Of a DNA stretch of 64,000 nucleotides, positions 4,172 to 49,743 are shown one piece after another; position 1 is the first letter of the stretch; each line of letters starts with the position of its first letter. Under the pieces are notes generated by a model. That model saw only the letters and a list, made by a program, of their open reading frames with translations. It was not told where the DNA came from and searched no databases. The translations under genes were made by a program, and so were the position numbers. Source of the DNA: Stentor roeselii (Eukaryota; Ciliophora; Heterotrichea; Heterotrichida; Stentoridae); NCBI GenBank assembly GCA_006503475.1, contig RSEH01000106.1, positions 1-64,000 on the forward strand. Reading direction: 5' to 3'.

Positions 4172-4714
4172 ATGGGTGTCTGCTCGATCAGTAAAACATA
4201 TAAAATAACCTCAATAACAGTAGCACCAGACCCTCTTCTAGCCTGCAGGTCAAACCTGATAAATCGTTTGATATTTATCAACAAGCTTAAAGTGAAATGC
4301 AATCAAGCAATAGAAACCTGTTTACTGGCAGAGGACGAAAAAAAAGCAATGCTTCTAAAAGCCAAGCATCTAGAATTAAAAAAGCTAGAGAAGCTAGTCC
4401 AGCAGCAGATCACGATATTAGACAATTCACAAGAAGAGCTAAGAAATCAAGAAAAAAGACAAAAATTAGCAGATCGAATTACTGAAGAGCTTGAAAATAT
4501 CTACCAAAGGTTCGACGTGGAGGACGACGTAAGTGAAATAATGGAAAAAATCTCTGAAGGTCTTTCAGCTTCAGTCCTGGAAAAGAAACTCGAAGGAAAT
4601 AATCAAGAAACCAGGGCCCTACTGCAACAAATGGTCCAGGACCAAGCAAAGAAAATAAAAAATTTGAATAAAGGAAGTAGCTCTTTGAGAAGACGTTATG
4701 TTAAAGCTAGTTAG
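4172..4714 (+). CDS. ESCRT-III Snf7-family protein, CHMP6/Vps20-like
   Basis: This 180-aa protein begins MGVCSISK, a possible N-myristoylation site (Gly2), as in CHMP6/Vps20. A long charged helical core follows, with KAMLLKAKHLELKKLEKLVQQQ and a helix ending ITEELENIYQRFDVEDDVSEIM, matching the alpha1-alpha4 layout of Snf7 proteins. ESCRT-III proteins polymerise on membranes for multivesicular body formation, abscission and repair. The basic segment expected before alpha1 is short and unusual (RSNLINRLIFINKLKVK). The start has the ATAAATG context frequent in this window. Its TAG stop directly abuts the stop of the next, convergent gene. A different CHMP subfamily is possible. Confidence 0.6.
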   Translation: MGVCSISKTYKITSITVAPDPLLACRSNLINRLIFINKLKVKCNQAIETCLLAEDEKKAMLLKAKHLELKKLEKLVQQQITILDNSQEELRNQEKRQKLADRITEELENIYQRFDVEDDVSEIMEKISEGLSASVLEKKLEGNNQETRALLQQMVQDQAKKIKNLNKGSSSLRRRYVKAS

Positions 4715-7700
4715 TTAATGTTCGATTAGCCTAAGACTGCATTTTAACCATGCGATGAATGAAATTGACTGGAGAATTAGAAGGTCTGTAAGAAAACCAG
4801 AGATTAGAGGGATGTGCCATTTTTCATTTGATATCGAGAAAAAAGTTAAGAGCAGCGATACGATTGTTATCAGGACAAGCAATGCAACCCCTGAGGCTCT
4901 AAGGTAGAAGGACGACCTACTAAGCAGAACCATTAGACAAAAGGTGCTAGGCCAGACCAAAACAGCTGAAATCAGTCCTTCAAGTATCAAATCATCTTCA
5001 GAAGCCATCTCTAAAACCGACTGCCATGCAACCATCTGCAAAACAGCAGAGAAGTAAATCGAAATACGTTGATATTTAGACCAAACAAGACTATTCGACA
5101 CAAACAATCCAAGCAGAAGATGATACTCGATTCTGGACAAACTTTCAGAATTTTCCAACTGGTCCAAAGTATCTTTTTCATCATAAGACTCCGACTTTCT
5201 CTCAGTTTTTCTTTCCTTGATCAAGTCAACTTCTTCTAGATTCTTCTGATTGAACACCCAGAAAAAAATACTTAACATGATCCAAAGTAATGAAACACTA
5301 CAAGAAAAATAAAAAGCTGCTCTTTGATGAAATCCTTCAAATTGATAAGTGAAATATTCACCAGTTTCTTGAAGCTGAAGACAAATTCTTTCACCTGAGC
5401 TGCAAGTTTTTGCAGTGCAAAAAATTTCGCTTTGATTTTGAGACTTTCCTTCACATTTCACTTTATGATTGTAATTGTTGGGGATCTTCAACACTGCTGA
5501 GTAGTTCATTATCAAATCAATCTTCTCCGTTTCAATCATTTCATAGTCCTCAAAGTACTTGTTACTGAAAATCTCGAATTGGAAGACTGGGAAGTCCAAC
5601 TTGATTAGAATTAATTTTATCTCAATTATCAGGCTTCGATTGAAGTTAAGTTCTGGGAATTTCAAGTTGATGTCACCGAAAAGAAGATTCCTTCTCGCGA
5701 AGAAACGCTCGAAGTTGATAGTTTTGTAGATAATCAGTCTTTTACTGTGCAATTCAATCACTTCACCGATGTTTTGGTAGATGTTTAGAAGAGTTTTCAG
5801 AAGGGTGAAAACTTTTGACTGGTGATCGTTGTCAGGGTAAAGTTTTATTACTTGGTCAGCGAATTCATTGATTTTTATGCTGATCTTGTCATTCACTTCA
5901 GGCAGGTCAGTCAATAAATAACTGAGCAGGTTGAAATACTTGGAAATGTATTCTTTACTTAATGACTCTTTTTGAATTTCATTCATGAATTCAGAAATCA
6001 CTGATAAAGCTAGTTCTAATAATTCCACACTTTTTTCTTCATTTCTACAAAATTCTTCGAAATCTTGAATCATTCTAGTTAAAAGTTGTTCTTTCACCTC
6101 TATTGACTTTAGATAAGCTAGTAAAGTATTGGTAAGGCCAAAGGAATTACAGTCTTTTTCATATTCTTCGAGGGTATCAACGGGTTTCAGTTGACGTCGA
6201 GTTGAACTCATTGTTAGTTGTGATGAACTTTTCAATGTGATGCAGTCGTTTAGGGAATCGCAAACTTTTACGAATGGAGTTAAAGACCCGGTTGGGAAAA
6301 TGCTTTTTATTGAGTTGGTTTTACTTGCAAGGCCTAAGTTTGTGTCTTTTCCGTTTTGACTGTATCCGAATGAGTAGGTCAAAGGAATGTCTGGACCGTC
6401 TAGGTCTCGGCATCCGATTATTGATAAGGATATTGATGTTTTTCTTGATGTTCCTGAAGATGGTGAAAATGTTAAGGATGATAAACAGGAAGGAGGAAGA
6501 TTTGTGGTTATACTTGCGTAGGACCTTAGATATTTTCCTGATGATTCGGTAACAGCTATCTGAAACGTATAGCTTGAGCCAGCATTCAAAGCACCAGCAG
6601 CAAAACTAATAAACGGAAAGTTACTAGGCACAATCGAAGCAGCAGGTCCCGTAAGCTGTGTCCACAAAATGCTACTTCCAGTAGTCGAACTAATAGAAGT
6701 TTGAATAGTAAACTGTTTACTAATAGTAACCCTCGTAAGCGGTACAATCATTTTGATAACAGTATTCAAATCATCGACAATATTATAAAAGCTGCTTCCA
6801 GTAGTACTTCTCCCCGAGTCACTAACAACGACCTTAATACTAAAATTTTTCAATCCCTGAAAATTTTCCCCAGGAATACTAATCGTGAACCCATCACTCG
6901 TAACTCCATTCAAAACACTTTCAGGTTCAGTCATCCAAGAGCAACTCAAGACAGTAGCTGAACTGTCAGGGTCATACGATTTGACAGCTTCAGCAGTGAA
7001 GCCCAAAGAACTCGACACGTCTCCAGTCGGTCGATTCCAAAGAAGGACCAGGTCTGAATTAATCACGTTGATTGTCACTGAAGTACTTCCTGTCACTCCT
7101 GAGATTGAAGCTGTGACTGAAAAGGAATAAGGACTTGATGTTGAGAGAAGAGTCTTTGAAGGAATTTGAAGACGACTTGGAGAGACTTGCTTGCAACTTG
7201 ATAGGATTGATGGAGATGATGACCAGGTGAATATTGATGAACCTTGCATTCCGCAGTAGTCTGTTATTGTTACTTGAAGGCTTATGGATGTGGATGGCTT
7301 TACTGTTAGTGAAGAGCCTGTGTCGAATGATATTGTTAGGATCTTGTTTGAGTAAATGGAGAGTGTTTTGTTGGAAGAGGCTGAATTGTTGAAAATGTCT
7401 GATACTGTTAGGTAGAGAGTTATTGATGAGGTACTTTCTGTTATTAGTGATGTACTTATTTGGAAGGTTGAACTCGTGGACCCTTCATGTCCTTCAATAT
7501 TCACCGACCATTGATAAGCAAATGTCTCAGAATTGATTCCAGTAGATCCATACCCATTAAACTCCACTAATTCATTCGAGCATCCCAAAGAAATCTTGCT
7601 AGTTCCAGAAATAACCGCATTAGGTGGGAAAGGACTAACCGAATACGCAGGATAAACTAAAACATCAGTAAAACTCAATAAAAAAACTCCAGATTTTCTA

Positions 7701-10700
7701 ATTAAATAATCAGCTTTCAATTCCAAAGCATCAACCGATGTGATTGTCCATGCAAGTCCTAAAGCAATTCTAATAGTAGTAGTATTAGTAAATGAACAAA
7801 CAGCACCAATTCCCAGTTTTGTTGTAATTTTTATGATATTTGAGCAGAGAGGAGATACTGAAGTATCAATTTCGCTATTCAGATAAATATGAATCTTCAT
7901 AAAATCTGAATCAAATTCAGTTTTATTAATGTTACTTGCTTGTAAATATCGTGTTGCTTTCTTGCAAAGGCTATTTTCAAGTAGATAACCTTCATCACAT
8001 AGACATTTTTTAGAATCACTGCTGAAAGTAGCGTGTTCGACACATTCACAAGGAAATACTCCACTTTTTGTGTTTTCTACACAAATTGTGCAGTTTGAAT
8101 AGTCGTTGGTGCAGGTTTTGCAAAGAGGATCTGAACAGGATTCACAGTTTTTTAAATTTATTCCATGGTAGTCGTTGCAGGTGCAAGATCCTTCGTTTAG
8201 AGATGCGTTTTCTTTACATTCTTCACAAATTGATTGGTCTCCTGAACAGTCTTTGCATATGGGACTCTTACAATCGTCACAGAGTCCTGATGTGTTCAGG
8301 CCGAACTCGTTGATACAAACACACATTGAGTTTATTAGAGAAGAATGGGAACTGCATTCTGTGCAATTTTCTATTGATGAGCATTTTTGGCAGACGTTTA
8401 AACATTCATGACATTCATGGTATTTTAGGTAAAAATTTCCGTCACAAGAGTTGCATTGACTTGAGTTCAAATTGCAGGATAAACAGTTTGAAGAACATGC
8501 TTCGCACTTTTTGCTTATGTGATTCAAACCTATCGACTGAATTTCCTTACATTTTGTGCATTCTAAGTAATTCAACGAGCATTCTTGGCAAGGCTCTTCA
8601 CAATAGTTACAAAACCCTGTAGATGGATTAGTGCCGAATCCAATATCACAAAGGCATAACTTAGATGTCAATGTTGCATTATTCCAACAACTAAGACATT
8701 CATTAATCCCTGAGCAAGTCTTGCATGTATTGTTGCAAGGCTGACATTCATCATTAATTAAAAAATACCCATCTTCACAATCGACACATTTCAAAGAATT
8801 TGCGGAGCAATTAACACAATGTTCAAGACAACCTTGACACAAAAGACTTTCAGGATGCAGCCCAAAAGGTTCCTTACAAGCCGAGCATTTCAAGTGATTA
8901 TCAAAGCACAAAGAGCAATTATCAGCACAATTTTCACAGAATCCAGTGTTCAAGTCAATCCCCAATCCCTGATCACATTTGCATTGAAATTCCTGATCCA
9001 AATTAGCATTATTCCAGCATGTTAAACAAGATTGTCCATCATTGCAAGTTTGACAATTAATCAAGCACTTTTCACAGCTACTTCCATTAAAATAAAACCC
9101 GTCTTCACATGTCTGACAGAGACTTGAGTTGATAGAGCAGTTCAAACAATGCATCATGCAAGACGAGCATTCAAAGGTTTCAGGATTTATTCCTAGGTTG
9201 TCTTCGCATTTTTTACAGATTTCTACGTTTTCTTCGCAATTTAAACAACTTTCAGAACAAGGCTGGCATTTGTTCGTAGAATGGTCTAGACCGAAGCCCG
9301 TATCGCAACGACAAGAGTGGTCGTCGAAGAGATAAGCGTGCTGCCAACATGATTGACATGTTGATTGATTGGTGCAGTTTTCACAGGTTCCTGAACATTC
9401 CTTGCATATGGACCCGTCGAGGTAGTAATGCCCTTCACACAGATCACATTGAGAAACATTCGAAAAGCAACTAACACAAAACTGCGAACACAATTCACAA
9501 AGACTTCCATTCAATCCATATCCATTCTCACAACTTTCACAAACAGAAAAATCTTTTTCACAAACATCACATTTCTCTTGACAACTCTGACAACTTCCAT
9601 TTTCCGCATTTTTTCCAAACCCATCATGACAAAAGCAAGACCCATTATTAAGAGTAGCATTAGGCCAACAGCTAAGACATTCTTGTTCAGCTTTACAAGT
9701 GATGCAAGTTTTATGACATTTAAAACAAGATCCATTATTCAAAAAGTACCCATCCTGACAATTTGTGCAGATTTTCTGGTCTTCTGCACAGTTCAAACAG
9801 TTTGAATCGCATGTTGAACATTCTTTGTTTTGGTCTCGTCCGTAGCCGCTTTGACATTTGCAGAAAGATTCAAATGGAAATGAATGGCTTTTGCAAGTTT
9901 CGCATGATGATGAGTTTGAACAGGTCTCGCAGGAGGACTCGCAAGACTTGCATTGACCTGAATCTTCGAAGTAATTGTCTTTGCATACCTGGCAGTAGGA
10001 AGAGTTGGAACCGCAGAGACTGCAGTTTTCGAAACATTCTGTGCAATCGTTTTCGGAATTGAAACCGTAGTGATTCAGGCAAATGCATTTTTTTGAATTG
10101 TCTGGACCCATTGCGTTTTGTTTGCAACTTGTGCAGTTTTCAAATGATTCGCAAGATTTGCACGATGAATGGCAGGGGAAACATTCACCTGAACTGGCGT
10201 AGTACCCTTCAATACAAACCTGACAATACGAAGAGTCATCCTCACAGACCTCACAATTAAAATCATCACAATCCGTGCAATCCCCAAGATGATTAAACCC
10301 AAGTCCATAATCACACTTACACATGCTATCCTCATCAAGACTAGCATAACTTTTACAAGAATCACAAGAGTAATCATCAGAGCAAGTTTGACACCTAACA
10401 TCACAATGTTGACAACTATGACTTAAATCCAAATAAAACCCATCATCACAAGTTTCACATTCCGAATGATTAAAAAAGCAAGTGTTGCAATTAAGATCAA
10501 AACATTCAACACAAACTGGCAAGGACCCGTTAAACCCGAATCCTTCTTGACACAAGCATCTTCCAGCGCCACTCAGACTTAAATAAGGCAGACAACTCTT
10601 ACAAGAACTTGAATTATCACAAGTTTTACATTCAGGAAGACAGGCCGAGCAAGAACCATTGAATTCAAAGAATCCATCAAAGCACTCATCACAAATTTTC

Positions 10701-12355
10701 AAATTTTCACTGCAGTTGAAACAAGAAGAAGACTGACAATCAGCACATTCAAAGTTCGCATCGAATCCGAATTGAGAGACACATTTACAGTCATTTGAAG
10801 AGTTAGGACCTTCCGCATGTTCTTTGCATGAAAGGCAATGATCGTAGTTTATGCAAGTTTTACAACTGGAATGACAGGTCAAGCAACTTTGGTTCATTAA
10901 ATAAAAGCTGTCAAGACAAGAGCTGCATAAAAACGGGTTATTTTTGCATAAATCACAGCCAGTCGCGCAGTTGCGTTTTAGACTTACCAGTTGAGCCAGG
11001 TCAACGAAAAGGTTGATAAATGTTGAACTTTCAAGAATTTTACATTCGAATTCTTCAGGAACACAAGAGTACCCGAAGTTCGACTCATTAGAATAAACTT
11101 GAAAATCTTTAGAGACGTTTAAACAGTTTACTTGCAATTCATTTTGAATCTCGTAGAAAGTGATGGAATAGTTACTTGCGTTGTAAACTCCTGCGTCAAG
11201 CAACCTCTGACTGAACCCGTCAGCGTCATTGAGGATTTTGGAGTAGTTTGTAGAAATCAGGGAAATTATCATTGGAGAGGAACATAAAGAACAGTAGCAG
11301 TTTGTCAAGTCAGATATCAAAGTCTTTTGATACTGCAAGTTTATTGAACCTGAAGCTGAGTAATGACTTGAACTTGCCTCAAATCCTTGATATAAAGTGT
11401 AAGTAGTTCCTTTTGTGATATTCGAGACAAAGGAGATCAAAGAGTCATCCACTGACTTGACTACTGAAAAATACTCCTGAGATGACGAGTCGATTATCAA
11501 GGAGTAAAAATTCAAGTAAAGCAGGTAAATATTCAGATATTTTTCATGAATTTCTAAAAAATCTGAGTAGTCTAGCAGTGGAGAGTAAAGATGAAGACTT
11601 AACACCCTGAGCAATTCCACTGATGAATTACTTTGAACTGATGAGAGTGACGGGTCCAGAAGGTTCTCAATTGCTGTTGCGTATAAAAAACACTCTTCTG
11701 TTGTTTCGAAGCTGTTTGAGTAATAACTTTGAAGTTTTACTAACATGTGAGCGAACAGGCTGGAATTCGCGGATTGGTAGTAAAGGTTTATCGCGTCTGG
11801 AATACTTGTCTCGTTCGCGTAGGAGTCAAACTCTTCTATTGAACCGCTTTGAAGTCTTCGCCTGGCTGATTCTTTAGGACTGTACCGGATGAATGAAAAT
11901 GTTGGGGTTTCTGATGTTTTCGACTTTTTGGAGTATTCGGATGATAAATAGCCTAAATCGCTTTCTGTTAACTTTAAAGATAACTCTGGAGTTATTTGGA
12001 TCACGATGAATGAATGGCTTTTTTTCAAGCACTGTGAAATTATCACGTCGTGTTCTGTTGTTTCTTCAACAGTTACAATTATCGCTGGTTGGCTTTTTCT
12101 TACTTTTTTTAGAGCTTCTTCACAAAGCTGAGGATTTCTTCGGCCTGTCCAGTCAATGTTCAATCTGGAAAAATCTATTGATTCATCAGAAACATTTGGA
12201 ATTTCATTTGGAATGAATATCAGAAGATTGGACTTTGGAAAATCCGGAATTTCTGTTGAGATGCTGGATTTTCTGACATCTCCTTCTTGAGATGCCTCAA
12301 CATTTAAATATCGATAGGCTTGACAGAAGCCTAAAACGATAATATTCAGCCACAT
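4715..12355 (-). CDS. giant cysteine-rich, REJ-type multipass membrane protein (2546 aa)
   Basis: The protein has a hydrophobic N-terminal signal peptide (MWLNIIVLGFCQAY), a leader region of about 450 aa with many potential N-glycosylation sites, then about 1000 aa of cysteine-rich furin/EGF-like repeats. I count eleven roughly 90-aa modules, each marked by a C-x-x-(F/Y/L/H)-G-(F/L/I/T)-(N/D)-type segment such as CDTGFGLD. Next comes a Ser/Thr-rich region of beta-sandwich type (about 1560-1980) resembling PKD/REJ domains of polycystin-1 and the sea-urchin sperm receptor. The last 200 aa hold about six hydrophobic segments. It is probably a cell-surface receptor or adhesion protein. I did not see PLAT or a clear GPS motif, so it is not a standard polycystin. 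No intron is needed. Confidence 0.7.
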   Translation of the reverse strand: MWLNIIVLGFCQAYRYLNVEASQEGDVRKSSISTEIPDFPKSNLLIFIPNEIPNVSDESIDFSRLNIDWTGRRNPQLCEEALKKVRKSQPAIIVTVEETTEHDVIISQCLKKSHSFIVIQITPELSLKLTESDLGYLSSEYSKKSKTSETPTFSFIRYSPKESARRRLQSGSIEEFDSYANETSIPDAINLYYQSANSSLFAHMLVKLQSYYSNSFETTEECFLYATAIENLLDPSLSSVQSNSSVELLRVLSLHLYSPLLDYSDFLEIHEKYLNIYLLYLNFYSLIIDSSSQEYFSVVKSVDDSLISFVSNITKGTTYTLYQGFEASSSHYSASGSINLQYQKTLISDLTNCYCSLCSSPMIISLISTNYSKILNDADGFSQRLLDAGVYNASNYSITFYEIQNELQVNCLNVSKDFQVYSNESNFGYSCVPEEFECKILESSTFINLFVDLAQLVSLKRNCATGCDLCKNNPFLCSSCLDSFYLMNQSCLTCHSSCKTCINYDHCLSCKEHAEGPNSSNDCKCVSQFGFDANFECADCQSSSCFNCSENLKICDECFDGFFEFNGSCSACLPECKTCDNSSSCKSCLPYLSLSGAGRCLCQEGFGFNGSLPVCVECFDLNCNTCFFNHSECETCDDGFYLDLSHSCQHCDVRCQTCSDDYSCDSCKSYASLDEDSMCKCDYGLGFNHLGDCTDCDDFNCEVCEDDSSYCQVCIEGYYASSGECFPCHSSCKSCESFENCTSCKQNAMGPDNSKKCICLNHYGFNSENDCTECFENCSLCGSNSSYCQVCKDNYFEDSGQCKSCESSCETCSNSSSCETCKSHSFPFESFCKCQSGYGRDQNKECSTCDSNCLNCAEDQKICTNCQDGYFLNNGSCFKCHKTCITCKAEQECLSCWPNATLNNGSCFCHDGFGKNAENGSCQSCQEKCDVCEKDFSVCESCENGYGLNGSLCELCSQFCVSCFSNVSQCDLCEGHYYLDGSICKECSGTCENCTNQSTCQSCWQHAYLFDDHSCRCDTGFGLDHSTNKCQPCSESCLNCEENVEICKKCEDNLGINPETFECSSCMMHCLNCSINSSLCQTCEDGFYFNGSSCEKCLINCQTCNDGQSCLTCWNNANLDQEFQCKCDQGLGIDLNTGFCENCADNCSLCFDNHLKCSACKEPFGLHPESLLCQGCLEHCVNCSANSLKCVDCEDGYFLINDECQPCNNTCKTCSGINECLSCWNNATLTSKLCLCDIGFGTNPSTGFCNYCEEPCQECSLNYLECTKCKEIQSIGLNHISKKCEACSSNCLSCNLNSSQCNSCDGNFYLKYHECHECLNVCQKCSSIENCTECSSHSSLINSMCVCINEFGLNTSGLCDDCKSPICKDCSGDQSICEECKENASLNEGSCTCNDYHGINLKNCESCSDPLCKTCTNDYSNCTICVENTKSGVFPCECVEHATFSSDSKKCLCDEGYLLENSLCKKATRYLQASNINKTEFDSDFMKIHIYLNSEIDTSVSPLCSNIIKITTKLGIGAVCSFTNTTTIRIALGLAWTITSVDALELKADYLIRKSGVFLLSFTDVLVYPAYSVSPFPPNAVISGTSKISLGCSNELVEFNGYGSTGINSETFAYQWSVNIEGHEGSTSSTFQISTSLITESTSSITLYLTVSDIFNNSASSNKTLSIYSNKILTISFDTGSSLTVKPSTSISLQVTITDYCGMQGSSIFTWSSSPSILSSCKQVSPSRLQIPSKTLLSTSSPYSFSVTASISGVTGSTSVTINVINSDLVLLWNRPTGDVSSSLGFTAEAVKSYDPDSSATVLSCSWMTEPESVLNGVTSDGFTISIPGENFQGLKNFSIKVVVSDSGRSTTGSSFYNIVDDLNTVIKMIVPLTRVTISKQFTIQTSISSTTGSSILWTQLTGPAASIVPSNFPFISFAAGALNAGSSYTFQIAVTESSGKYLRSYASITTNLPPSCLSSLTFSPSSGTSRKTSISLSIIGCRDLDGPDIPLTYSFGYSQNGKDTNLGLASKTNSIKSIFPTGSLTPFVKVCDSLNDCITLKSSSQLTMSSTRRQLKPVDTLEEYEKDCNSFGLTNTLLAYLKSIEVKEQLLTRMIQDFEEFCRNEEKSVELLELALSVISEFMNEIQKESLSKEYISKYFNLLSYLLTDLPEVNDKISIKINEFADQVIKLYPDNDHQSKVFTLLKTLLNIYQNIGEVIELHSKRLIIYKTINFERFFARRNLLFGDINLKFPELNFNRSLIIEIKLILIKLDFPVFQFEIFSNKYFEDYEMIETEKIDLIMNYSAVLKIPNNYNHKVKCEGKSQNQSEIFCTAKTCSSGERICLQLQETGEYFTYQFEGFHQRAAFYFSCSVSLLWIMLSIFFWVFNQKNLEEVDLIKERKTERKSESYDEKDTLDQLENSESLSRIEYHLLLGLFVSNSLVWSKYQRISIYFSAVLQMVAWQSVLEMASEDDLILEGLISAVLVWPSTFCLMVLLSRSSFYLRASGVALLVLITIVSLLLTFFSISNEKWHIPLISGFLTDLLILQSISFIAWLKCSLRLIEH

Positions 12356-12406
12356 AATATAAGAAAGTTTTTATTTTATTTATATCTTTATGCTAATAGA
12401 AAAAAA

Positions 12407-13693
12407 TTAGGGATTTTTGGGGTTTTCTTCGTCGTTTGTGTCTCTTTTTCGCTTTTTTGGTACCACTGTTGAGAGGTCAGTTAAAATTTCAGCAGCTTTT
12501 TTATCCTCCTCAAACCTTTGCCTAGCCATATGAATCGCTGAGAACTGTTTAGCCATATTAAGATACCATCCAATAGCAGCATATCCATTCATCACATTCT
12601 GCTGATAACTCAATCCAATCCCATTATTCTGCGGTTTAGGTTTCTCAATTTTTTCTTCCTTCACCTCCCTTCTCTTCAAAAACGGAATTTCCGAAACATC
12701 AAATTCAAAAAAAACCATTTCTTTAGTCCTTTCCTTCACGAAATCCTGATTTTTCGCCAATTGTTTCGCTTTATCAAAAGCGATTTTTGATTCATTATGT
12801 TGTCCAGAGATCCAATAAAGACTTCCAATATTATTCCAGATTTCCCAACTTTTCCCTGAAAGTTCAGAAGCTCTTGTAAAACATCGAAAAGCCTGAGCTG
12901 TTTGACCGATATCTGAACAAAGAATGCCGAAACTATTAAGTGCTTGGAAATCAGAAGAATTTTGATTCAGGACTTGAAGATAAAAATTTGATGCTTGTGG
13001 AAAGTCTTTGTTTAAATGATGAAGTCTTGCCAGGGCGTAGAGAAGGTCAAGTTCTTCAAGTGAGCCTTTTGTGCAAAGAGAAAGACCTTCGGTTAGATGT
13101 TGATGGGAGGACTTTTGGTCGGAGTCTTTTAAGAACCACCCAAGGCTTAGAGCTGAATAAGATGAGCTTTGTTCCTTGTGGCTTTTGGTGAAGATTGATA
13201 GAGCTTCGCAGGTTTGGTTTAGTTTGGAGTAGCAGTGGCCGAGTTGAAGATTGGATTCGTGTTTTAAGCTACTTTTTAAACACTTTTTAAAGTATAGGAT
13301 TGAATCTTGGTATAGGGAAAAACGCTTGAATATCAAACCTAGCTTGAAACTTATTGAATAACGATGGGGAAAGTCTGGGGATATTGATAGGACTTTTAAA
13401 AATGATGGCTCGGCGTAGTGTAGGTTATCACTGTTGAAGTACATCAAACCGATCCCGTACCAAAGTTCAGCATCTTCTACCTGCAGATGAATAGCCTTCT
13501 GATAAAACTCATGAGCCTTCGAGATATTAGACTGAATCTGATAACAATGCCCAAGATTTTTTACAACTTCAAAGTTTTTAGGTTCAGCAACAAAAACAGC
13601 TTCAAGTTTCGAAGTTTTTTTTCTGATTTTCGCTAAATCAGGTGACTTGCTTTCAAGTTCTTCAACAATAAAGTGACTAGAGATGAGTGACAT
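12407..13693 (-). CDS. TPR protein, Cyc8/Ssn6-like
   Basis: The 428-aa protein consists mainly of tetratricopeptide repeats from about residue 30 to 320. The segment LWYGIGLMYFNSDNLHYAEP followed by FKLGLIFKRFSLYQDSILYF closely resembles the TPR block of the transcriptional co-repressor Cyc8/Ssn6 and of UTX/KDM6A. The C-terminus carries a basic nuclear-localisation-like KKRKRD. I infer a nuclear co-regulator role, but TPR folds are easily confused and the region downstream of the repeats is short. The start has a TTATAAATG context. The gene lies head-to-tail with the giant surface protein gene, 51 bp upstream of its start. Confidence 0.62.
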   Translation of the reverse strand: MSLISSHFIVEELESKSPDLAKIRKKTSKLEAVFVAEPKNFEVVKNLGHCYQIQSNISKAHEFYQKAIHLQVEDAELWYGIGLMYFNSDNLHYAEPSFLKVLSISPDFPHRYSISFKLGLIFKRFSLYQDSILYFKKCLKSSLKHESNLQLGHCYSKLNQTCEALSIFTKSHKEQSSSYSALSLGWFLKDSDQKSSHQHLTEGLSLCTKGSLEELDLLYALARLHHLNKDFPQASNFYLQVLNQNSSDFQALNSFGILCSDIGQTAQAFRCFTRASELSGKSWEIWNNIGSLYWISGQHNESKIAFDKAKQLAKNQDFVKERTKEMVFFEFDVSEIPFLKRREVKEEKIEKPKPQNNGIGLSYQQNVMNGYAAIGWYLNMAKQFSAIHMARQRFEEDKKAAEILTDLSTVVPKKRKRDTNDEENPKNP

Positions 13694-14527: not shown

Positions 14528-14546
14528 TTTAATTGGGATTAATGAA

Positions 14547-18349: not shown

Positions 18350-18365
18350 TTTTTAATTATAAGAA

Positions 18366-19586: not shown

Positions 19587-19635
19587 TTATAGACATTATG
19601 AGATTCAATATGTATTTTAAGAGGAGATAAATACT

Positions 19636-39347: not shown

Positions 39348-40763
39348 TTAAACCAAGTCCCTTCGTTTCGCCTTCTTAGGACTCACTGCGTCGAGGAAAA
39401 AGTCAGTCTTGGTCCTCTGGGCTTCTGGGACGTAATCACGTCTGGGGTGTCCCACGTAGTACTGTCTTGGTCTCACGATTTTATTCTCAGGGTCTGAGTG
39501 GAACTCTTTCCAATGCGCGAGCCACCCGACGATTCTTGGAATCGTGAAGAGAACGGGGAACATGTCTGTTGGGAAACCCATTGCTCGGTATATCACTCCT
39601 GTGTAGAAGTCAACGTTAGGGTAAAGCTTTCGGTCGATGAAGTACTTGTCGGTTAAAGCGATTTTTTCAAGTTCCATTGCGATGTCGATTAGAGGCTCTC
39701 TTCCACAGACGGAAAACACGTCTTCTGCGATGGTTCTGACGATTTTTGCCCTTGGGTCGTAGTTTTTGTAAACACGGTGACCGAAACCCATCAGTCGGCC
39801 GTTTCCTCGCTTTACGCCTTCGAGGAACTTTGGAATGTTTTCGATTGAACCGATTTCTTCTAACATTCTTAGAACTGCTTCGTTTGCACCTCCGTGTCTT
39901 CTGCCGTATAGAGCCGCTGCGGCTCCTGCGATGCAGCTGTACACGTCGACTTCACTGGAAGCCAGGTGCCTCATAGCAGCAGTCGAGCAATTAAGTTCAT
40001 GTTCAGCATGTAAGATAAACAAAACATCCAAAGCCTTGACCAATTTCGGATGAGGTTTAAACGAGCTTTCATTGAGTCTATCCATCATATACAAAAAGTT
40101 CTCAATATAGCTCAAACCCTGTGCTGGGTCATTAAAAGGCCTTCCGATCCTATTCCGATAAGCAAAAGCCGCAACAGTCGTGATACGACCAATGATCCTA
40201 TAGATCTGCTTGTTAACCTGCAGAGTATCTTTATAAGGGTCAAGTCCGGGTAGCAAGGCAGGGTTTTGTTCAGGCTGAAAGGTACTCATGGCTGCCATGG
40301 TACTGACCAGCACGCCCATAGGATGAGCATCATAATGAAAGCTCTGCATCATTCTTGAGATATCAGTATGAATATAAGTATGATGCATAATTTTATGTTC
40401 CCACTGCGAAAACTGCGTTTTCGTCGGCAATTCGCCAAAAATCAGCAAAAATGCAACTTCAAGAAAAGTTGACTTCTCAGCCAGTTCCTCAATAGGGTAC
40501 CCTCGATACTCAAGAATCCCTTTATCGCCATCAATAAAACTTATCTTCGAAGTACAGCAAACAGTCTGCATGTACCCCGGGTCGTACAACATCAAGTTCT
40601 CTCCTTCCTTCGACTTGAACTTTCCCAGGTCTTTCGCTTCAATAAAGTTATTTTTTATCTCAAGTTCCGCTGACTTGCCACTGCGACTGTCAGTGACAGT
40701 CAAGGAAGACTTCGCCAGAAGATGTGACTCGACAAGTGCGAGTCGTTGAAGAGCTCTGTCCAT
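39348..40763 (-). CDS. CS: citrate synthase, probably peroxisomal (PTS2-like signal)
   Basis: The 471-aa enzyme condenses acetyl-CoA and oxaloacetate. Catalytic residues lie in HAEHELNCS (His), MGFGHRVYKNYDPRA (His) and PNVDFYTG (Asp). It is of the bacterial/plant-peroxisomal type rather than the animal mitochondrial type, with a beta-rich N-terminal extension (FIDGDKGILEYRGYPIEEL). Residues 7-15 read RLALVESHL, fitting the PTS2 consensus R-L-x5-H-L, as in plant glyoxysomal citrate synthase. This suggests import into peroxisomes and a role in the glyoxylate cycle. The gene is convergent with the WD40 gene at 15 bp. Confidence 0.93.
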   Translation of the reverse strand: MDRALQRLALVESHLLAKSSLTVTDSRSGKSAELEIKNNFIEAKDLGKFKSKEGENLMLYDPGYMQTVCCTSKISFIDGDKGILEYRGYPIEELAEKSTFLEVAFLLIFGELPTKTQFSQWEHKIMHHTYIHTDISRMMQSFHYDAHPMGVLVSTMAAMSTFQPEQNPALLPGLDPYKDTLQVNKQIYRIIGRITTVAAFAYRNRIGRPFNDPAQGLSYIENFLYMMDRLNESSFKPHPKLVKALDVLFILHAEHELNCSTAAMRHLASSEVDVYSCIAGAAAALYGRRHGGANEAVLRMLEEIGSIENIPKFLEGVKRGNGRLMGFGHRVYKNYDPRAKIVRTIAEDVFSVCGREPLIDIAMELEKIALTDKYFIDRKLYPNVDFYTGVIYRAMGFPTDMFPVLFTIPRIVGWLAHWKEFHSDPENKIVRPRQYYVGHPRRDYVPEAQRTKTDFFLDAVSPKKAKRRDLV

Positions 40764-40817
40764 ATTTATGACGTAATAAGTCTTGTGAATGAATTTTCTG
40801 ATGTGGTTAGATTATTA

Positions 40818-41912: not shown

Positions 41913-41928
41913 TTATATACAGATTTTC
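41913..41928. promoter_or_regulatory. 16-bp spacer between divergent start codons
   Basis: The interval between the CK2 alpha ATG and the CDPK-like ATG is TTATATACAGATTTTC. It is the shortest divergent spacer in the window and includes a TATATA-type run next to the CK2 start. Confidence 0.5.
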
Positions 41929-43347
41929 ATGGGCTGTCTTTGTCCACCCAGCCAATCTCCAACCCCAAATATGAACCTATTAAAAGTAATTGAAAAGCCA
42001 AACAAGCCAACAAAGCGAAGTTCCTCATTAAACAGCATCAATTTAGAAGATCTCTATCAAGTAAATCTCGAGTCTCACTCAAATTTCTTCGCCGATTTCC
42101 GATTATCATCTCAAAAAATCGGTTCAGGTCGCCACGGAGTAATAAAACTATGCTACAAAAAAACAAACAACAAGAAATTCGCAGTAAAACTCTTAAAAAA
42201 AGACCCAACCTCTGAAACATTCAAATTAAATCTCTCAATCCTTCGTCAAGTGCAATATTTATCAGTACTAAACCACCCATCACTGTTAAAAATCCATTCA
42301 TTTTACGAAGACCACATAAATTTTTACATTGTTATGGACCACTTTAAACAGGGCGACCTTTATGAAAGGCTAATAAAAAATCATAAGTTTTGTGAAACTT
42401 GCACTTCTCGAATAATGCGGCAGATCTTCTCAGCACTCGCTTTTTTGCACAGCAAAGGATTGGCTCATCGCGACATTAAGCTCGAAAATATGCTGTTGGA
42501 AGAAAATGATTCAGAAATTTTAGTGAAAATCACTGATTTCGATACTTTTGGTGTTTTAGATGGAAAGTTTTTTCATCAGTTTCAAGGAAGTCTTCCTTAT
42601 ATGGCTCCTGAAGTGTTGAAAAGATGGTATAATGAAAAGTGTGATGTTTGGAGCGCTGGAGTCGCCATGTTCGCCATGCTCACTGGAAGGTACCCGTTTG
42701 TTGGAGAGACTTCTGAAGAGATTTGTGGAAGGATTTTGAATCAGGAACTTGATGGAAGTGATTTTATAGGAATTTCGAATGATGCTGTTGGACTAATTAA
42801 GAAGGTTTTAGAGAAGGATCCTGAAAAACGATTTTCAGCTGCTGAGGCTTATCGACATGGCTGGATCTTGAAGAACAGCTATCGTTCTATTCAAAAGCCG
42901 GTGAAAATACCAGGATACGATGCTTTATCACATGGTCTCAAGTTATGGGCTCTGCAATACGTGATCGACGATTACGACCTGGTTCATTTTGAACTAGCTT
43001 TTTTACAGTCCGATAGCAACTTAGACGGTTTCCTAGATACCTCAGAACTAAGCGACTACTTAAAACTAGTCAGTCATCATGAGTCAACCCTAATCATTTC
43101 TCATGGTTTTTGGACAACTCCTAATCATCTAAACTTTTACGAGTTTATATCAGTGATGGCTCCAAGTTCATTCTGGGAAGATCATTATTCTCAAATACTA
43201 AGTGAATTTCCCTTAACATTCCCAACAACTGAGTCAAAAATAGTCTTTTTTTTGAAGTCGAAGCTTAAAGGTCCCGGGCGATTTTCAGGAATCTCTTCTG
43301 ACGAAGAACTGACTGAAAGAGACCTTTGGTCATTAGTGACAAAATAA
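41929..43347 (+). CDS. CDPK-like kinase with altered DFG motif
   Basis: The 472-aa protein starts MGCLCPP, a likely myristoylation/palmitoylation site. The kinase domain (about 60-330) has IGSGRHGVIKL, FAVKLLKK, HRDIKLEN, ITDFDTFG (DFD instead of DFG) and APEVLKRWY. In the C-terminal region one EF-hand looks canonical (DSNLDGFLDTSE); the other expected hands are degenerate or missing. It is probably a divergent paralogue of the CDPK at 30426-31910. The DFG change may lower or alter activity. It is followed after 14 bp by the CAMTA-like gene. Confidence 0.82.
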   Translation: MGCLCPPSQSPTPNMNLLKVIEKPNKPTKRSSSLNSINLEDLYQVNLESHSNFFADFRLSSQKIGSGRHGVIKLCYKKTNNKKFAVKLLKKDPTSETFKLNLSILRQVQYLSVLNHPSLLKIHSFYEDHINFYIVMDHFKQGDLYERLIKNHKFCETCTSRIMRQIFSALAFLHSKGLAHRDIKLENMLLEENDSEILVKITDFDTFGVLDGKFFHQFQGSLPYMAPEVLKRWYNEKCDVWSAGVAMFAMLTGRYPFVGETSEEICGRILNQELDGSDFIGISNDAVGLIKKVLEKDPEKRFSAAEAYRHGWILKNSYRSIQKPVKIPGYDALSHGLKLWALQYVIDDYDLVHFELAFLQSDSNLDGFLDTSELSDYLKLVSHHESTLIISHGFWTTPNHLNFYEFISVMAPSSFWEDHYSQILSEFPLTFPTTESKIVFFLKSKLKGPGRFSGISSDEELTERDLWSLVTK

Positions 43348-43361
43348 TGTAAATATGTATA

Positions 43362-44759
43362 ATGGAAATCCCTCAGCAGTGGTCATGGCTCAAGCCAAGC
43401 GATGTCTTCATCTTACTAAAAAGCTCTGAAAGTAGTGCTTACCCTTTCATCACCTCTTACTCAACCGTTCCGAAGGCAGGGAATATCTTTTTCATTAGGA
43501 AGTCCCAGTTTAAAAGATGGAAACAAGACGGCCATAATTATATCAGCAGAAAAAACGGCGTCGGCATCAGAGAAGACAGAGAAAAGTACACATTTGGAAG
43601 TGAAACTGTCACTTGCACATATGTCCATGGCTCTGGGGCTTGTCCAAGCTGTAAAAATTCTTATCTTGTCACTTGTTCTAACTGCGGGTTAAATATCACT
43701 TCTGTGCTTTTTCATCGAAGAGCTTATTGGCTTGTTTCTAACCCTGAAATCATACTCGTTCATTATTTGGATGACTCGATGGAAAAAATCACTGATAATA
43801 ACTTTCAAAGCTCGGGAGAACAGATTAAAAAAATTGCGGAATTGTTGAGACAAATTGATTTTGAGTCTTTTTCCGGAATGAAGATTATTGAGTTCTGTCC
43901 TGAGTGGAGTGATGTTCATGGAGGTACGAAAGTTGTGATTTGTACTGACCCGCCTTTGCTGGTTCCTAATCCTCAAAATCTTTTTTGTGCTTTTGGAGAT
44001 ATGTTGGTGCAGGTGGAGTCGGTTATGTTAGGAGTTTTTAAATGTTTTACACCTCCTCATTCCCCAGGCTATGTCGATTTTTACCTAGTCTACGAGTCAA
44101 GAGACATAACCCAAACCAGAAAAATTTTCGAATTCAAAGACCTAGGCCAAGAAAATTTCATATCAAAAAGCTTAGAATGGTGGGAATCGGACCGAAAAAC
44201 AATAGAAAAAGACCTCATTGAAAACATGCAAATAGACCTTCAAGAAGAGTTCGACGAGAACCAATTCGACGAATGTTTTTTCCTAACCCAATTCTCAAAA
44301 ATCACTGAAAAACCTGACTGGGACGATTTACTCGAATGTGGCCGAAGCTACCTTCACTTCTTCTGCGCCTTGGGTTTTTCTTCATTAATCCGAAATTTCT
44401 CAGACTGGATAAGAAAGCCAACAATAAAAGACCAAAACGATAAAAGTCCAATCGACATCGCACTGATCAAGCACAACTACGACTGTGCTTACGAGTTGAT
44501 TAGAATCAGCTGTGAAGACTCAGCAGGACTGAAATTCTGGAAAAAAGACCTGCTAAACGACCGAGTTCAAAAAATTCAAAGTCACGTCCGAGCCTGGATC
44601 CAACAACGACAGTTCAAAAACTTAAAAAGCGCTGCAAAGGTCTTGCAGAAGACTTTTCGAGGAATGATTGCTAGAAGGAACTTCAAGTATCAGAAACAAG
44701 CTGCGATTTTAATTCAAAAGTCAGTAAGAAGGTGGCTTATTTCTTTAGACCATCATTAG
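43362..44759 (+). CDS. CAMTA: CAMTA-like transcription factor (CG-1, TIG, IQ)
   Basis: The 465-aa protein has a CG-1 DNA-binding domain (about 5-126): WSWLKPSDVFILL, FKRWKQDGHNYISRKNG, RRAYWLVSNPEIILVHYLDD. Inside it, residues 94-108 carry C-P-S-C...C-S-N-C, a zinc-ribbon-like insert. A TIG/IPT domain follows (about 160-236), then a short ankyrin-like region (about 322-372) and about three IQ motifs (401-460, e.g. IQSHVRAWIQQRQF). This is the plant/animal CAMTA order, linking calmodulin to transcription, but in a much shorter protein. The stop codon is TAG, 5 bp from the convergent neighbour's stop. Confidence 0.85.
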   Translation: MEIPQQWSWLKPSDVFILLKSSESSAYPFITSYSTVPKAGNIFFIRKSQFKRWKQDGHNYISRKNGVGIREDREKYTFGSETVTCTYVHGSGACPSCKNSYLVTCSNCGLNITSVLFHRRAYWLVSNPEIILVHYLDDSMEKITDNNFQSSGEQIKKIAELLRQIDFESFSGMKIIEFCPEWSDVHGGTKVVICTDPPLLVPNPQNLFCAFGDMLVQVESVMLGVFKCFTPPHSPGYVDFYLVYESRDITQTRKIFEFKDLGQENFISKSLEWWESDRKTIEKDLIENMQIDLQEEFDENQFDECFFLTQFSKITEKPDWDDLLECGRSYLHFFCALGFSSLIRNFSDWIRKPTIKDQNDKSPIDIALIKHNYDCAYELIRISCEDSAGLKFWKKDLLNDRVQKIQSHVRAWIQQRQFKNLKSAAKVLQKTFRGMIARRNFKYQKQAAILIQKSVRRWLISLDHH

Positions 44760-44764
44760 ATTAG

Positions 44765-46313: not shown

Positions 46314-47741
46314 ATGTATGCACAAAAAAAAGCACCAACATTACAACTCCCAGAGCGACCAATGGACCGATTTCTATTCTCTTACATAAAAAAAAACCTA
46401 GATCAGTCTATATTCAAAGTAAGCTAAACCTAGGACATCCGAAGTAAATTAATCGTAACAACAAGACGGTTCAAAACAAAGATAAAAAACTTAAAATTCG
46501 GCCGAAAAAGTTACTTTAAAACTCTCTGCAAAAACTACTACTTCTTCGAAACCCTCATCAAACGTGAAATCGCTTTAAGCCTAAAAGAAAGACAAGAAGA
46601 GTCAATAAATCGAAGCAGCTACGAAGAAGTAATGAAAAAAGACAAGAAATTCAAAGCTTTTCGAAAAAAAATCTCAGTTCTTGAAGCAGAACTTTTAGAA
46701 ACCAGGAAAAAAAAAGACCAGCTGATAGAAAAACTCCATAAAGAACAAGACGAGGTCGAAAATAAACAGAGAAAAAAAGAGTATCTTGAAAAACTCATGA
46801 AAAAAGCAGCGACTAGAAGAGAAGAACTCATGAATCTTAAAAGAAACTGGTCTCAAAGTCCAGCAAAGTCCCAGCCTAAGTATTTAAAAATTGAAGAAGA
46901 ATATCTATCGCGAGCTACTCTTGAAAAATCTCAGAGGATCTTTGAAGCTCTTGAACAGAAATCACTTAATATGAAATCTATATCTAAAGAAGAGATCGAA
47001 AATCATTCGAAATTTTATGATGATATCATTTCTGAGGCTAAACGAAAAAGAAAAGCAAAATTGAAAGAGTATTTTGTAGATTGCTTAAATAGTCCCTCGA
47101 ATATTTTTAAAAAAGCGATACAGGATGAAAGAGAGTCGTTGAAAAACTCTAAAAAGTCGATGCTCGCCAAAAGAACAAACTACAGCCACCTGATAAAAGA
47201 GCTCTACCCTCCAACAATCCCAAAGATAACCCTAAGCGAGCCCAACAGAACTCCAAAAAACATCAGCCCAAAATCCCCAAAAAAACGATCAAGTTTAGCC
47301 TTAGTGAGATTTTCACGTCCAATTCTAAAGCGAAACGCGACTCCTGAGACATTAACCCCTGCCTCTCTAAACACTCCAAGCATCATGTCAAAAATCAACT
47401 CAGGTTTTTTCACTCCCAAGTCACATTCAACCATCGACAAGAAGAACTATCTAAACGATTTAAGATTAAAAAGAAACAACAGCGACAAGTTCATAAGCGC
47501 TTTTGAAACATTAAGTTTATGTGAAGGAGACCGTAACAAATTTCGAGCATTGGAAAAAATCCAAAAGATTGAAAAAATTGCTTTGGTTGAAAGTGAAAAA
47601 GCAAGGTTTAAAGACAACAGAAGTACCGAAGGCGCTTTTCAAGAGGCTAAAGCGAATGAACTGCTTTTGGAGTCTTTGAAGGCGAAGATGAAACTGCTTC
47701 CGACGAATAAGATGTCGTCGTTTTCTTTATATCTTAACTAG
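46314..47741 (+). CDS. basic coiled-coil protein, unknown (2 exons)
   Basis: The spliced protein is 470 aa: exon 46314-46418, a 15-nt intron at 46419-46433, exon 46434-47741. I chose the ATG at 46314 because the frame is open to the in-frame ATG at 46362 and beyond. The first exon encodes PERPMDRFLFSYIKKNLDQ; the second continues with a basic helical region, long coiled coils (about 100-200), and a Ser/Pro/Lys-rich middle with TPKNISPKSPKKR. It is very basic overall. A cytoskeletal or basal-body role is possible but not supported by a domain. The last 8 bp overlap the convergent TMEM8-like gene. Confidence 0.68.
46419..46433 (+). other. 15-nt intron in coiled-coil gene
   Basis: The sequence is GTAAGCTAAACCTAG. 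It brings in-frame stop codons; removal joins Q-S-I-F-K to D-I-R-S-K and extends the protein N-terminus by more than 100 residues relative to the first ATG of the downstream frame. A lies at position 10. Confidence 0.88.
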
Positions 47742-49743
47742 AGTTAATTGACTTGCTTTCACGCCCTCCCATGATGGACAAAGGCACTTCGATGTCGACC
47801 GTGTTGCTTTTAAACTTGAAGTCGTTGTCGTCGTAGTAAACCCCGCGCAAGAGGCTAAAAGCTGTAAGCATGATAAAAACATGCCACAAAGAATGAGTCT
47901 GTTTAGATTTTACAATGTAATAATTATAATTTCCTTGAAATCCCCTTGAAACTAAAGCGGAAATCAGGAAAATCAAAGCAAAACCCAGCCACTTGATTCT
48001 AAAGTTTTTTGATTTAAACAAAAAAATACCCAGGGTTTTAAAAAAAGACTTGTTGAACTCTCTGTGATTTTTATTGTAAATAAAAAGAAAGAATCTGGTG
48101 AATGGCACAAGTGAAACGATGATCAAAGGCTGAATAAAAATTACTAGAATCGAGGATTCAAACATGCTGAAACCAGTGCCTAGTCCCAGGTAAAGTAAAA
48201 TGATGAGAACTGATAGAAGTAATGAGAACTTTAACTTAAGTTGTGTCAGCTTCGCAAGGTAAATAATGCTGACGCAAACACTGTAAAAGCTGAGTATAAA
48301 GTCAATCACTCTCAGTGAGTATGAAGAAAACCCGAAGCAATAGTACTGCTCATCACACCAGTGATAGATGTAACTTGCTATCATGTTCGCTGCATATGCT
48401 GTTATTTCCACATAAGCCTTTATTCTGAACCCATAGACGACTGCCAAGCACATCGTCAGGTTGGAGAGTGTTAAAAACATGATGGCCACCCAGTACCTCG
48501 TGTCACTTATCGCATCTTTTTCACAGTAAAAACCTCCAGTGTTTTGAAGACAGTAACAGAAATACACGATATCGTCGTAGTCCTCGTCGGGCTGCGAGTT
48601 GCACATGTTATCTCCAATTTTACTTCGGAAGACTCGAAAAAAATAACTATCATTTGAATGCATCTCGATGTTTATGTAGAGATCTCCGAGTTTAGCGTAT
48701 TCAATCTCTGCTATTATTTCATCTGAGTGCTTTTTGCAGTAGTTTTTTGAATCTGACTCGCAAAGTGGCATCGGGTTTTGAAGTCCTTGAAGACTGTATG
48801 AAAGACTTTTTAATTTGTTATTTCGAGATTTTAGACTCACAGCGTAACGGTATTTTATATCATCTTCAGCGATTGGAAGAAGGACGTGAAGAATAGTTTC
48901 ATTTACTTCATCGGTGTACCCGGGATTCTCAGGGATTTTATTAAAAGTGCTAGCATGGTTTTTATAATAAATAGTCTCATTCAGACATTTCGTAGTAATA
49001 TTAACAAAACAATCTTCAGTCTTTATATTAACAAAAGTCGTGTTTGTGAAGTTTCCAATAAAATACCACCAACCTGTCTTGGGGAACTTGAAATTTTTTT
49101 CGCCACTTTCGAGACTTTTCTGGAAATTGGTAGAACTTATTGAAAAGTTTGAGTTACTTTCAACTGTTAGAGTAGCTGTGGACTCACTTACGTATATCAA
49201 AGATCCTGCGATTCCTTCGATATCAGAAAAAGTGTCGACTATAGGAATATCGCAGTATTTACTTTGAGTTTTAGTGAAGTTCCAAGGAGCGATTGTAAAT
49301 TTTCCTGAGGGACAATAATAAGCACTGATGAAAATTGTGTACTCCCAACCTCTCACTGTGTAAGCGTTAAACATGTGAAACTCATCTAACAGTCCTCCGT
49401 CAATTCTCACGATAATAAAACTACCTGATCGAGGAAAAATTGATGAGACTAGTTTTCCGTGTTTTCTTTCAAGGTTTAAGTAAAAGTCGTGATGTTTTTC
49501 GTTTGGAACTCCGTCCAGGCTACCGTAAGCTTTTGGTTTTGGGTCTGGGTATTCGCTTAGTTCACCGTCTTTGTTTCGGAGCTGGATACCGATGTCTAAA
49601 GAGAGAAGAGGTCCTTTTGGTAGATAGATTTTTTCGAAAATACTCTTCATTTTACTCAAGTGTCCATCGTAAGTCTCGAAGTATTTGGAAATTTGTTCAT
49701 ATCCTGAAGAGATTTTTAAAATAGCTAAAATCCAAATCATCAT
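47734..49743 (-). CDS. TMEM8/PGAP6-like CREST-family membrane protein
   Basis: The 669-aa protein has a signal peptide, a large glycosylatable ectodomain (about 20-395) and a cysteine cluster (CYCLQNTGGFYCEKD, about 398-412) like the EGF-like motif of TMEM8. About seven transmembrane helices follow. SYIYHWCDEQ and HSLWHVF carry the His/Asp and H-x-x-x-H residues of the CREST hydrolase superfamily, which includes PGAP6, alkaline ceramidase and Per1. It may act as a phospholipase on GPI-anchored proteins. The stop codon lies inside the last codons of the convergent coiled-coil gene. Confidence 0.72.
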   Translation of the reverse strand: MMIWILAILKISSGYEQISKYFETYDGHLSKMKSIFEKIYLPKGPLLSLDIGIQLRNKDGELSEYPDPKPKAYGSLDGVPNEKHHDFYLNLERKHGKLVSSIFPRSGSFIIVRIDGGLLDEFHMFNAYTVRGWEYTIFISAYYCPSGKFTIAPWNFTKTQSKYCDIPIVDTFSDIEGIAGSLIYVSESTATLTVESNSNFSISSTNFQKSLESGEKNFKFPKTGWWYFIGNFTNTTFVNIKTEDCFVNITTKCLNETIYYKNHASTFNKIPENPGYTDEVNETILHVLLPIAEDDIKYRYAVSLKSRNNKLKSLSYSLQGLQNPMPLCESDSKNYCKKHSDEIIAEIEYAKLGDLYINIEMHSNDSYFFRVFRSKIGDNMCNSQPDEDYDDIVYFCYCLQNTGGFYCEKDAISDTRYWVAIMFLTLSNLTMCLAVVYGFRIKAYVEITAYAANMIASYIYHWCDEQYYCFGFSSYSLRVIDFILSFYSVCVSIIYLAKLTQLKLKFSLLLSVLIILLYLGLGTGFSMFESSILVIFIQPLIIVSLVPFTRFFLFIYNKNHREFNKSFFKTLGIFLFKSKNFRIKWLGFALIFLISALVSRGFQGNYNYYIVKSKQTHSLWHVFIMLTAFSLLRGVYYDDNDFKFKSNTVDIEVPLSIMGGRESKSINSS

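Follow-up and report, generated by a model that had tools for sequence, protein, structure and literature searches.

The window analysed here, bases 1-64,000 of a 149,779 bp contig of Stentor roeselii (RSEH01000106.1, hereafter C11; assembly GCA_006503475.1 of 44,391,514 bp in 522 contigs), carries a 2546-aa open reading frame (ORF), a WNK-like kinase, a kinase with EF hands and a citrate synthase, and across these genes the plus strand alternates between G+T-rich (keto) and A+C-rich (amino) stretches. This alternation is a sawtooth, in which G+T on the plus strand rises slowly and then drops abruptly. The end of C11 consists of (TGTTAGGG)n, the heterotrich telomere repeat. All three standard stops are used as ORF ends, and since read-through past 21 TGA stops added a median of only 7 further codons, TGA is a stop in the S. 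roeselii ORFs, unlike in Blepharisma stoltei, where TGA encodes tryptophan (PMC9942806). We regard the source DNA as macronuclear and as coming from a heterotrich ciliate that uses the standard code. No ribosomal RNA match was obtained with a bacterial model.

A sequence-only reading of the window had described the blocks from hand counts of G+T per 60-base line, and all 15 of the counts that it quoted were exact on recount. Codons were shuffled synonymously within genes, keeping protein and codon usage (38 ORFs, 17,089 codons, 200 shuffles), and third-position variance was compared on the keto/amino (K), purine/pyrimidine (R) and strong/weak (S) axes. In blocks of 40-100 codons, the K variance was 2.9-3.5 times that of the shuffles (z 43-48) and the strong/weak variance ~1.7 times (z 12-14), while the purine/pyrimidine variance reached 1.02-1.28 times at block sizes of 10-150 codons (z 0.5-4.1, maximum at 100 codons). 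The K excess thus persisted against protein-preserving shuffles, and because these hold the protein constant, amino-acid composition, which the reading had named as what could undo its claim, is excluded as the cause. Pure GC variation was also rejected as an explanation, its excess being smaller than that of keto/amino and GC being flat across the drops. The block scale of roughly 300-600 bp given by the reading fits the autocorrelation, which crosses zero at ~315 bp, reaches its minimum of -0.21 at ~510 bp and returns to zero at ~930 bp. The same shuffle test was applied to the window and 19 other stretches of the genome, with two short loci excluded (one overlapping the window, one paralogue); K ratios of 1.33-4.63 were obtained in 20/20 stretches (z 3.6-41.9), and the purine axis gave 0.74-1.46. 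No K excess was seen in the two controls, 50 kb of E. coli (1.04 times) and 50 kb of T4 (0.91 times), neither of which is eukaryotic. A search of the viral and prokaryote collections with one tubulin turned up no further ciliate sequence.

The shape of the pattern was examined in 295,210 bp from 15 pieces, the pooled material for all analyses beyond the 20-stretch test, where steep keto-to-amino drops and amino-to-keto rises were scored with a step statistic, the step score S. The two kinds of flip differ, the keto-to-amino flip being abrupt and the amino-to-keto flip gradual. Drops outnumbered rises by 54 to 4 at S>50, 34 to 0 at S>60 and 113 to 81 at S>35, and five synonymous shuffles yielded 0-1 drops and 0-1 rises at S>50. 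The likelihood-fitted width at S>45 was 0.5-6 bp for 59 drops and ~30-40 bp for 19 rises, and a width of 30 bp fitted these 59 strongest drops worse by 42 nats; selecting strong steps favours sharpness, yet the rises chosen in the same way stayed less sharp. When steps were located with 60% of the sites and measured with the rest, the crossover was complete within ~30 bp at drops and spread over 100-150 bp at rises. Around 63 drops with S>45, the keto share of two-fold pyrimidine sites was 77% to the left and 19% to the right, values inflated by selection, and the mean signal beside 70 drops, about +0.44 and -0.45 on the two sides, faded with distance to ~0 at 500 bp. The skew of the step statistic was negative in both gene orientations (-0.68 in plus-strand and -0.51 in minus-strand genes), and the sawtooth shape is invariant under reverse complement.

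Supportively, a hidden Markov model (HMM) of synonymous codons, trained on C11 with the other pieces held out, was tested on ~37,000 codons, where the two-state version gained 1,916 nats and the four-state version 2,287. Fitted to all pieces, the four-state model moved mostly one way along genes, from A/C-rich through intermediate to T/G-rich and back to A/C-rich (forward rates 0.0109, 0.0088 and 0.0035; reverse rates 0.0011, 0.0029 and 0), the fourth state, with 15% of codons, lying outside this cycle. A cycle length of ~0.9 kb was obtained both from the HMM, as the sum of three state dwell times, and from the autocorrelation.

Between 4172 and 49743, 24 drops exceeded S=40; the table has a row for each of the 19 above S=47. 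All three keto-to-amino flips named by the sequence-only reading sit on steep drops, at window positions 7469, 22,700 and 39,955. Within one complete tooth, the log-likelihood ratio (LLR) per 100 bp, counted from 6583, ran -35, -43, -33, -24, -4, +19, +40, +42 and +31. The sole Pfam match of the 2546-aa ORF is to Giardia variant-specific surface proteins (VSP; E 5.5e-12), and the WNK-like kinase ORF also has a C-terminal PG_binding_1 match (E 2.3e-7), an odd combination.

Sawtooth features of the window and the genes that they cross (positions in the window; S, step score)
Feature	Position	Strand	Remarks
Sawtooth range given by the sequence-only reading	4172..49743		pattern fills the range and continues along C11
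Weaker drops	4881, 19716, 27386, 42855, 49608		S 40.8-44.5
2546-aa ORF	4715..12355	-	several teeth across it; Pfam VSP match
Steep drop, centre 6548	6538..6558		S 73.9; at 6554, indel of 14 bp relative to the C179 copy
Single tooth	6559..7468		amino left to keto right; LLR profile
Steep drop, centre 7469	7460..7490		S 74.0; flip between 7201-7380 and 7501-7620
Steep drop	9415..9437		S 57.9
Steep drop	10192..10214		S 61.8
Steep drop	12466..12500		S 60.4
Steep drop	13430..13470		S 66.4
WNK-like kinase ORF	21111..22913	+	two drops; Pkinase and OSR1_C domains
Steep drop	21600..21620		S 61.6; immediately left of amino stretch 21661-21780
Steep drop	22688..22706		S 65.6; between keto 22441-22560 and amino 22741-22800
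Steep drop	23680..23700		S 52.1
Steep drop	24496..24514		S 62.9
Kinase with EF hands	30426..31910	+	83%-identical C273 paralogue drops at another place
Steep drop	31216..31275		S 57.4; position not shared by the C273 paralogue
Steep drop	32155..32172		S 77.7
Steep drop	33590..33612		S 50.5
Steep drop	34634..34650		S 75.4
Citrate synthase ORF	39348..40763	-	Pfam Citrate_synt, E 1.4e-133
Steep drop	39948..39980		S 71.4; citrate synthase flip of the sequence-only reading
Steep drop	41938..41958		S 52.1
Steep drop	44046..44066		S 58.4
Steep drop	47150..47166		S 67.4
Steep drop	48904..48924		S 47.6

The sawtooth resides in the DNA and not in the codons. The flips fall inside genes and occur in both coding orientations, as had been claimed, and in ORF-free DNA (60 stretches, 47 kb) the K variance was 2.94 times that of shuffled sequence, with 1.68 times for R and 1.53 times for the strong/weak axis. 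The step skew in noncoding DNA was -0.21 at 90 bp, -0.39 at 120 bp and ~0 at 60 bp, and noncoding DNA beside genes tracked the plus-strand state of the gene (r=0.53, n=93; r=0.51, n=69). The strongest evidence of a DNA-level origin came from a context test, in which the shift from C to T, and separately that from A to G, between keto and amino surroundings was determined for each of the 16 neighbour contexts. Responses matched by reverse complement agreed at r=0.96 (0.95 in plus-strand genes, 0.94 in minus-strand genes, 0.95 on C11 and 0.90 on other contigs; r=0.91 when HMM states defined the surroundings), whereas unmatched pairing of the same contexts gave r=0.38 (p=0.15). The strongest contexts were A[C>T]G, C[C>T]G and A[C>T]A, and the weakest was G[C>T]T. 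Such agreement between reverse-complement contexts argues for a strand-symmetric process acting on DNA, and we see no route by which codon selection would arrive at it. A codon-level cause had also been considered from the strong C/T and weak A/G response, and was dropped, since the context test accounts for this difference. Divergent gene pairs, correlated at r=-0.52 (n=33), are consistent with plus-strand continuity.

The pattern is not wholly independent of genes: the blocks are found on both coding strands, but the teeth are partly in register with genes. On average, the coding strand is A/C-rich towards the 5' end of a gene and G/T-rich towards its 3' end, and the T fraction at codons ending in a pyrimidine (NNY) was ~0.50 in the first 360 bp and 0.65-0.68 in the last 240 bp of ORFs of at least 600 bp.

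GC remained at 0.34-0.41 throughout drops and rises, drops with S>38 lay barely nearer to ORF edges than random positions (15% vs 12% within 50 bp), and no dinucleotide stood out at the drops. Several k-mers exceeded their flank counts at 79 drops (GTAC 11 vs 3.3, AGAATC 9 vs 1.5, AGATAG 5 vs 0.2); no motif is claimed, these being the best of hundreds to thousands of k-mers, uncorrected, and GT|AC being expected from the switch itself.

Copies and paralogues of the window genes were used to compare the positions of the teeth. Window 6483-8737 recurs on contig C179 as a broken copy with 90% identity and a nearly identical profile, and all three indels of at least 7 bp between the two (a small number) lie within ~50 bp of steps, one of them by a weak step. 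In contrast, the profiles of paralogues whose proteins are 83% (C273) and 87% (C155) identical do not correlate (r 0.05 and 0.08); the window kinase drops at ~31,268, whereas the C273 gene, judged by 20-codon means, lacks this drop and has one elsewhere. The synonymous mismatch of these two pairs, 0.55-0.56 against 0.58-0.59 for random sequence, is near saturation; a third near-saturated pair gave r 0.29, and four less saturated pairs gave r 0.42, 0.43, 0.48 and 0.77. Poorly correlated profiles in near-saturated paralogues argue that the cause lies at the site and not in the protein. The sites thus seem to last roughly the time that synonymous positions need to saturate and then to turn over independently of the protein, and such turnover suits an insertion-like cause. 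Conservation was mixed among other paralogues: the profiles agreed within a tubulin trio (r 0.44-0.69) but not in two further tubulin pairs (r -0.20 and 0.19), and among tandem kinases r ran from -0.63 to 0.59.

Several duplications were seen beside these comparisons. The broken copy within C179:1501-5500, near one end of the contig, stands next to an 82%-identical copy of window 274-1474, so that the block is a composite duplicate of two separate C11 pieces. The two ends of the 24.6-kb contig C350 carry 97%-identical inverted copies (positions 1-803 and 463-1263 of the two pieces taken from this contig) that include part of a tubulin gene, with stops in one copy; the arrangement is either a genuine inverted repeat or a product of misassembly. 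Four diverged kinase-like paralogues, three of them consecutive, lie in window 17111-20616 and 36382-37347; their identity to the copy used as query is 38-39%, and the genome has at least 102 matches.

The account that we favour, tentatively and in the knowledge that it may well be wrong, is that the sawtooth is an evolutionary mutation footprint around germline sites at which 3'-ended strands are exposed, its drops sharpened by removed DNA. The germline would contain many stable and nearly base-precise sites, perhaps one per kilobase, a figure that follows from the cycle length and is not a count. On both sides of such a site, the 3'-ended strand would be exposed time after time as single-stranded DNA, in the way that a break resected 5' to 3' exposes it, and would gather C-to-T and A-to-G changes through deamination or error-prone repair. 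The plus strand would thereby become G/T-rich to the left of the site and the minus strand to its right, leaving the plus strand A/C-rich there, with an effect decaying over ~500 bp; purifying selection would spare the proteins and leave the footprint mainly at synonymous and noncoding positions. As read from composition, the polarity of the drops and the reverse-complement symmetry are those expected if C (and A) were altered on the strand with the 3' end, with the switch at the site, and opposite-order switches are rare at S>50, as a break-resection footprint requires, the gap being narrower at S>35. The drop would most probably be sharp because micronuclear germline-limited DNA at the site is excised from the macronuclear sequence. 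Sharpness of the strongest drops disfavours scattered breaks, unless the scatter lay in DNA since removed, and removed germline DNA would be the simplest source of such sharpness. Behind the observed sawtooth shape, DNA-level strand symmetry, sharp strongest drops and differing drop positions in some paralogues, we infer breaks, resection, deamination or error-prone repair, and the removal of germline DNA. One-shot hypermutation was rejected by argument, as the proteins would be wrecked. A bolder version, which we regard as doubtful but worth stating, is that every steep drop marks a site of excised germline-limited DNA, so that the somatic sequence would carry a map of inserts at near-base resolution, written by strand-asymmetric germline mutation; if true, inserts would be the main source of germline point mutations.

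A number of observations weigh against this account. Break sites as dense as these are, to our knowledge, unprecedented, and callable drops fall short of one per kilobase, 295 kb having yielded 87 with S>40. At the looser S>38, the best drop width was 15 bp (92 drops) and that of rises 60 bp (55 rises). Some contexts run counter to an axis that is purely keto, among them G[C>T]T at -0.34 and its mirror at -1.11, and convergent (r=+0.41, n=36) and tandem (r=0.08, n=77) gene pairs do not simply fit plus-strand continuity. Substitutions against the C179 copy, a single pair, were without clear ongoing asymmetry (odds ratio 1.67, p=0.56; 15 vs 12 in keto and 9 vs 12 in amino blocks at codon positions 1 and 2; 24/23 and 22/20 at all positions), and the proximity of indels to steps was not repeated in one noncoding pair. 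TA was present in 0.56 of 79 drop intervals against 0.61 +- 0.05 of shifted intervals, which is no enrichment; 0.86 would be expected if 75% of the drops lay at TA, and sharp junctions simulated on the same sites were located with a median error of 3 bp, 86% of 390 being covered. A TA boundary of the Blepharisma type is therefore not supported at the drops. Lastly, human hotspots are without asymmetry in the central 100 bp (PMC7615360), while the asymmetry of the sawtooth persists up to the drop. The missing TA is one reason for putting the footprint account forward only tentatively.

The explanation offered by the sequence-only reading, that macronuclear segments were joined in opposite orientations, accommodates flips inside genes and on both strands, but it predicts equal sharpness in both directions, whereas the keto-to-amino direction is far sharper (54 vs 4 at S>50; widths of 0-6 vs ~30-60 bp); moreover, a tooth, running from 5' amino to 3' keto on each strand, is the same after inversion, so that orientation could not be recorded, and we give this model practically no credence. 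Replication or repair asymmetry, also raised by that reading, is the class of idea that survives. Selection on synonymous codons for translation speed, co-translational folding or mRNA structure could draw on the average trends at gene ends and on the dominance of the C/T choice in coding orientation, where the lag-1 autocorrelation was 0.20 for NNY and 0.04 for codons ending in a purine (NNR). The gap between NNY and NNR can, however, be accounted for by the context symmetry of r=0.96, because the NNR codons of K, Q and E mirror weak 3' T contexts; with the sawtooth axis present in noncoding DNA and the profiles of the 83%- and 87%-identical paralogues unrelated, such selection is a very improbable cause. 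Micro-replichores would be teeth of ~1 kb in which germline forks start in mid-tooth and meet at the drop, the leading strand being G/T-rich. Drops do have the polarity of termini and rises that of origins, the rises are as broad (~30-60 bp) as diffuse origins would be, and the classic replication skew, for example in Borrelia, is a leading strand rich in G+T with a codon preference to match. Such a scheme nevertheless calls for one origin and one terminus, the latter fixed almost to the base, in roughly each kilobase, a density far beyond that of any chromosome known to us, and the unchanged base composition at drops and rises and the differing drop positions in some paralogues also speak against it; we consider it improbable.

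Noncoding transcription in the germline, with opposing units that meet or start at the drops and transcription-linked damage or repair that makes one strand G/T-rich, would have a parallel in mammals, where Green et al. in 2003 reportedly found transcribed genes to carry excess G+T on their coding strand, and ciliate micronuclei are transcribed around meiosis. Here the sign does not follow the transcribed gene, since flips occur within single genes on both strands. The germline model needs a gradient that peaks at a precise transcript end on both sides, or a sign opposite to the mammalian one, and the drops are without an AT-rich, promoter-like composition, so that we judge it unlikely. Recurrent germline breaks at fixed sites without inserts, such as meiotic hotspots, would leave the same footprint; the polarity and chemistry are those of human hotspots (PMC7615360) and resected yeast breaks (PMC6786661), and TA is not enriched at the drops. 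Human breaks, however, lie within ~100 bp of the motif (PMC7615360), and the fits to the present drops reject widths of 30-40 bp and above. As the drops are neither AT-rich nor appreciably nearer to ORF edges, we regard insert-free breaks as rather unlikely.

If the footprint account is right, a sawtooth of ~1 kb that overrides codon choice would record recurrent exposure of germline DNA at fixed points. Ciliate germline inserts or break sites could then be mapped from somatic sequence, which matters because micronuclear DNA is hard to obtain, and the effect of germline inserts or breaks on neighbouring DNA would become directly testable. Mutation at such sites could dominate synonymous evolution, and work on codon usage and on the ratio of nonsynonymous to synonymous change (dN/dS) in these organisms would need correction.

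Sawtooth or step skews with a G+T-rich leading strand are familiar from bacterial replichores and human replication skew domains at scales of 100 kb to Mb, and the sawtooth skew profiles known to us span tens of kilobases to megabases; the teeth described here measure ~1 kb, and their abrupt change is downward where the human jumps are abrupt upward. The drop polarity equals the signatures of resected yeast breaks (PMC6786661) and human hotspots (PMC7615360). In yeast, resected breaks give single-switch clusters with mutated C on the left and mutated G on the right, an order bias that the same paper did not find in cancers (PMC6786661); these clusters are one-off bursts in single cells, scored at C and G, whereas the present pattern is long-term, involves many sites and both A and C, and leaves proteins intact. 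In the flanks of human meiotic hotspots, over ~2 kb, one strand shows C>N and A>N changes and its partner G>N and T>N (PMC7615360), the same division between strands as the composition suggests here; there the signal is an excess of new mutations, and here it is the dominant composition in every sampled stretch, with drops possibly of a few bases.

Among ciliates, hypotrich nanochromosomes have a subtelomeric purine bias over ~50 bp (Prescott and Dizick, cited in PMC3558436 and PMC1805493). That bias is likewise one of bases in a ciliate, but it is tied to DNA ends, while the present one is keto/amino, extends over ~500 bp and is chromosome-internal; a shared subtelomeric bias was rejected on the ratios of the purine and keto/amino axes in the 20 stretches. 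Blepharisma stoltei, also a heterotrich, has 39,799 internally eliminated sequences (IESs) on 41 Mbp, ~70% of them inside genes and about three quarters TA-bounded, with excision implied to be exact (PMC9942856). The ~0.9-kb cycle resembles this density of about one insert per kilobase, mostly in genes, although the drops, unlike these IESs, have no TA excess; the available part of PMC9942856 makes no mention of strand skew around the inserts. Among the open-access papers that the searches listed, judged by titles and the beginnings of abstracts, no kilobase-scale nuclear strand sawtooth and no skew around ciliate germline inserts was found. Collectively, strand-skew sawtooths are known in kind, and it is the scale, sharpness, polarity and dominance of the one in Stentor that are new as far as the literature found extends.

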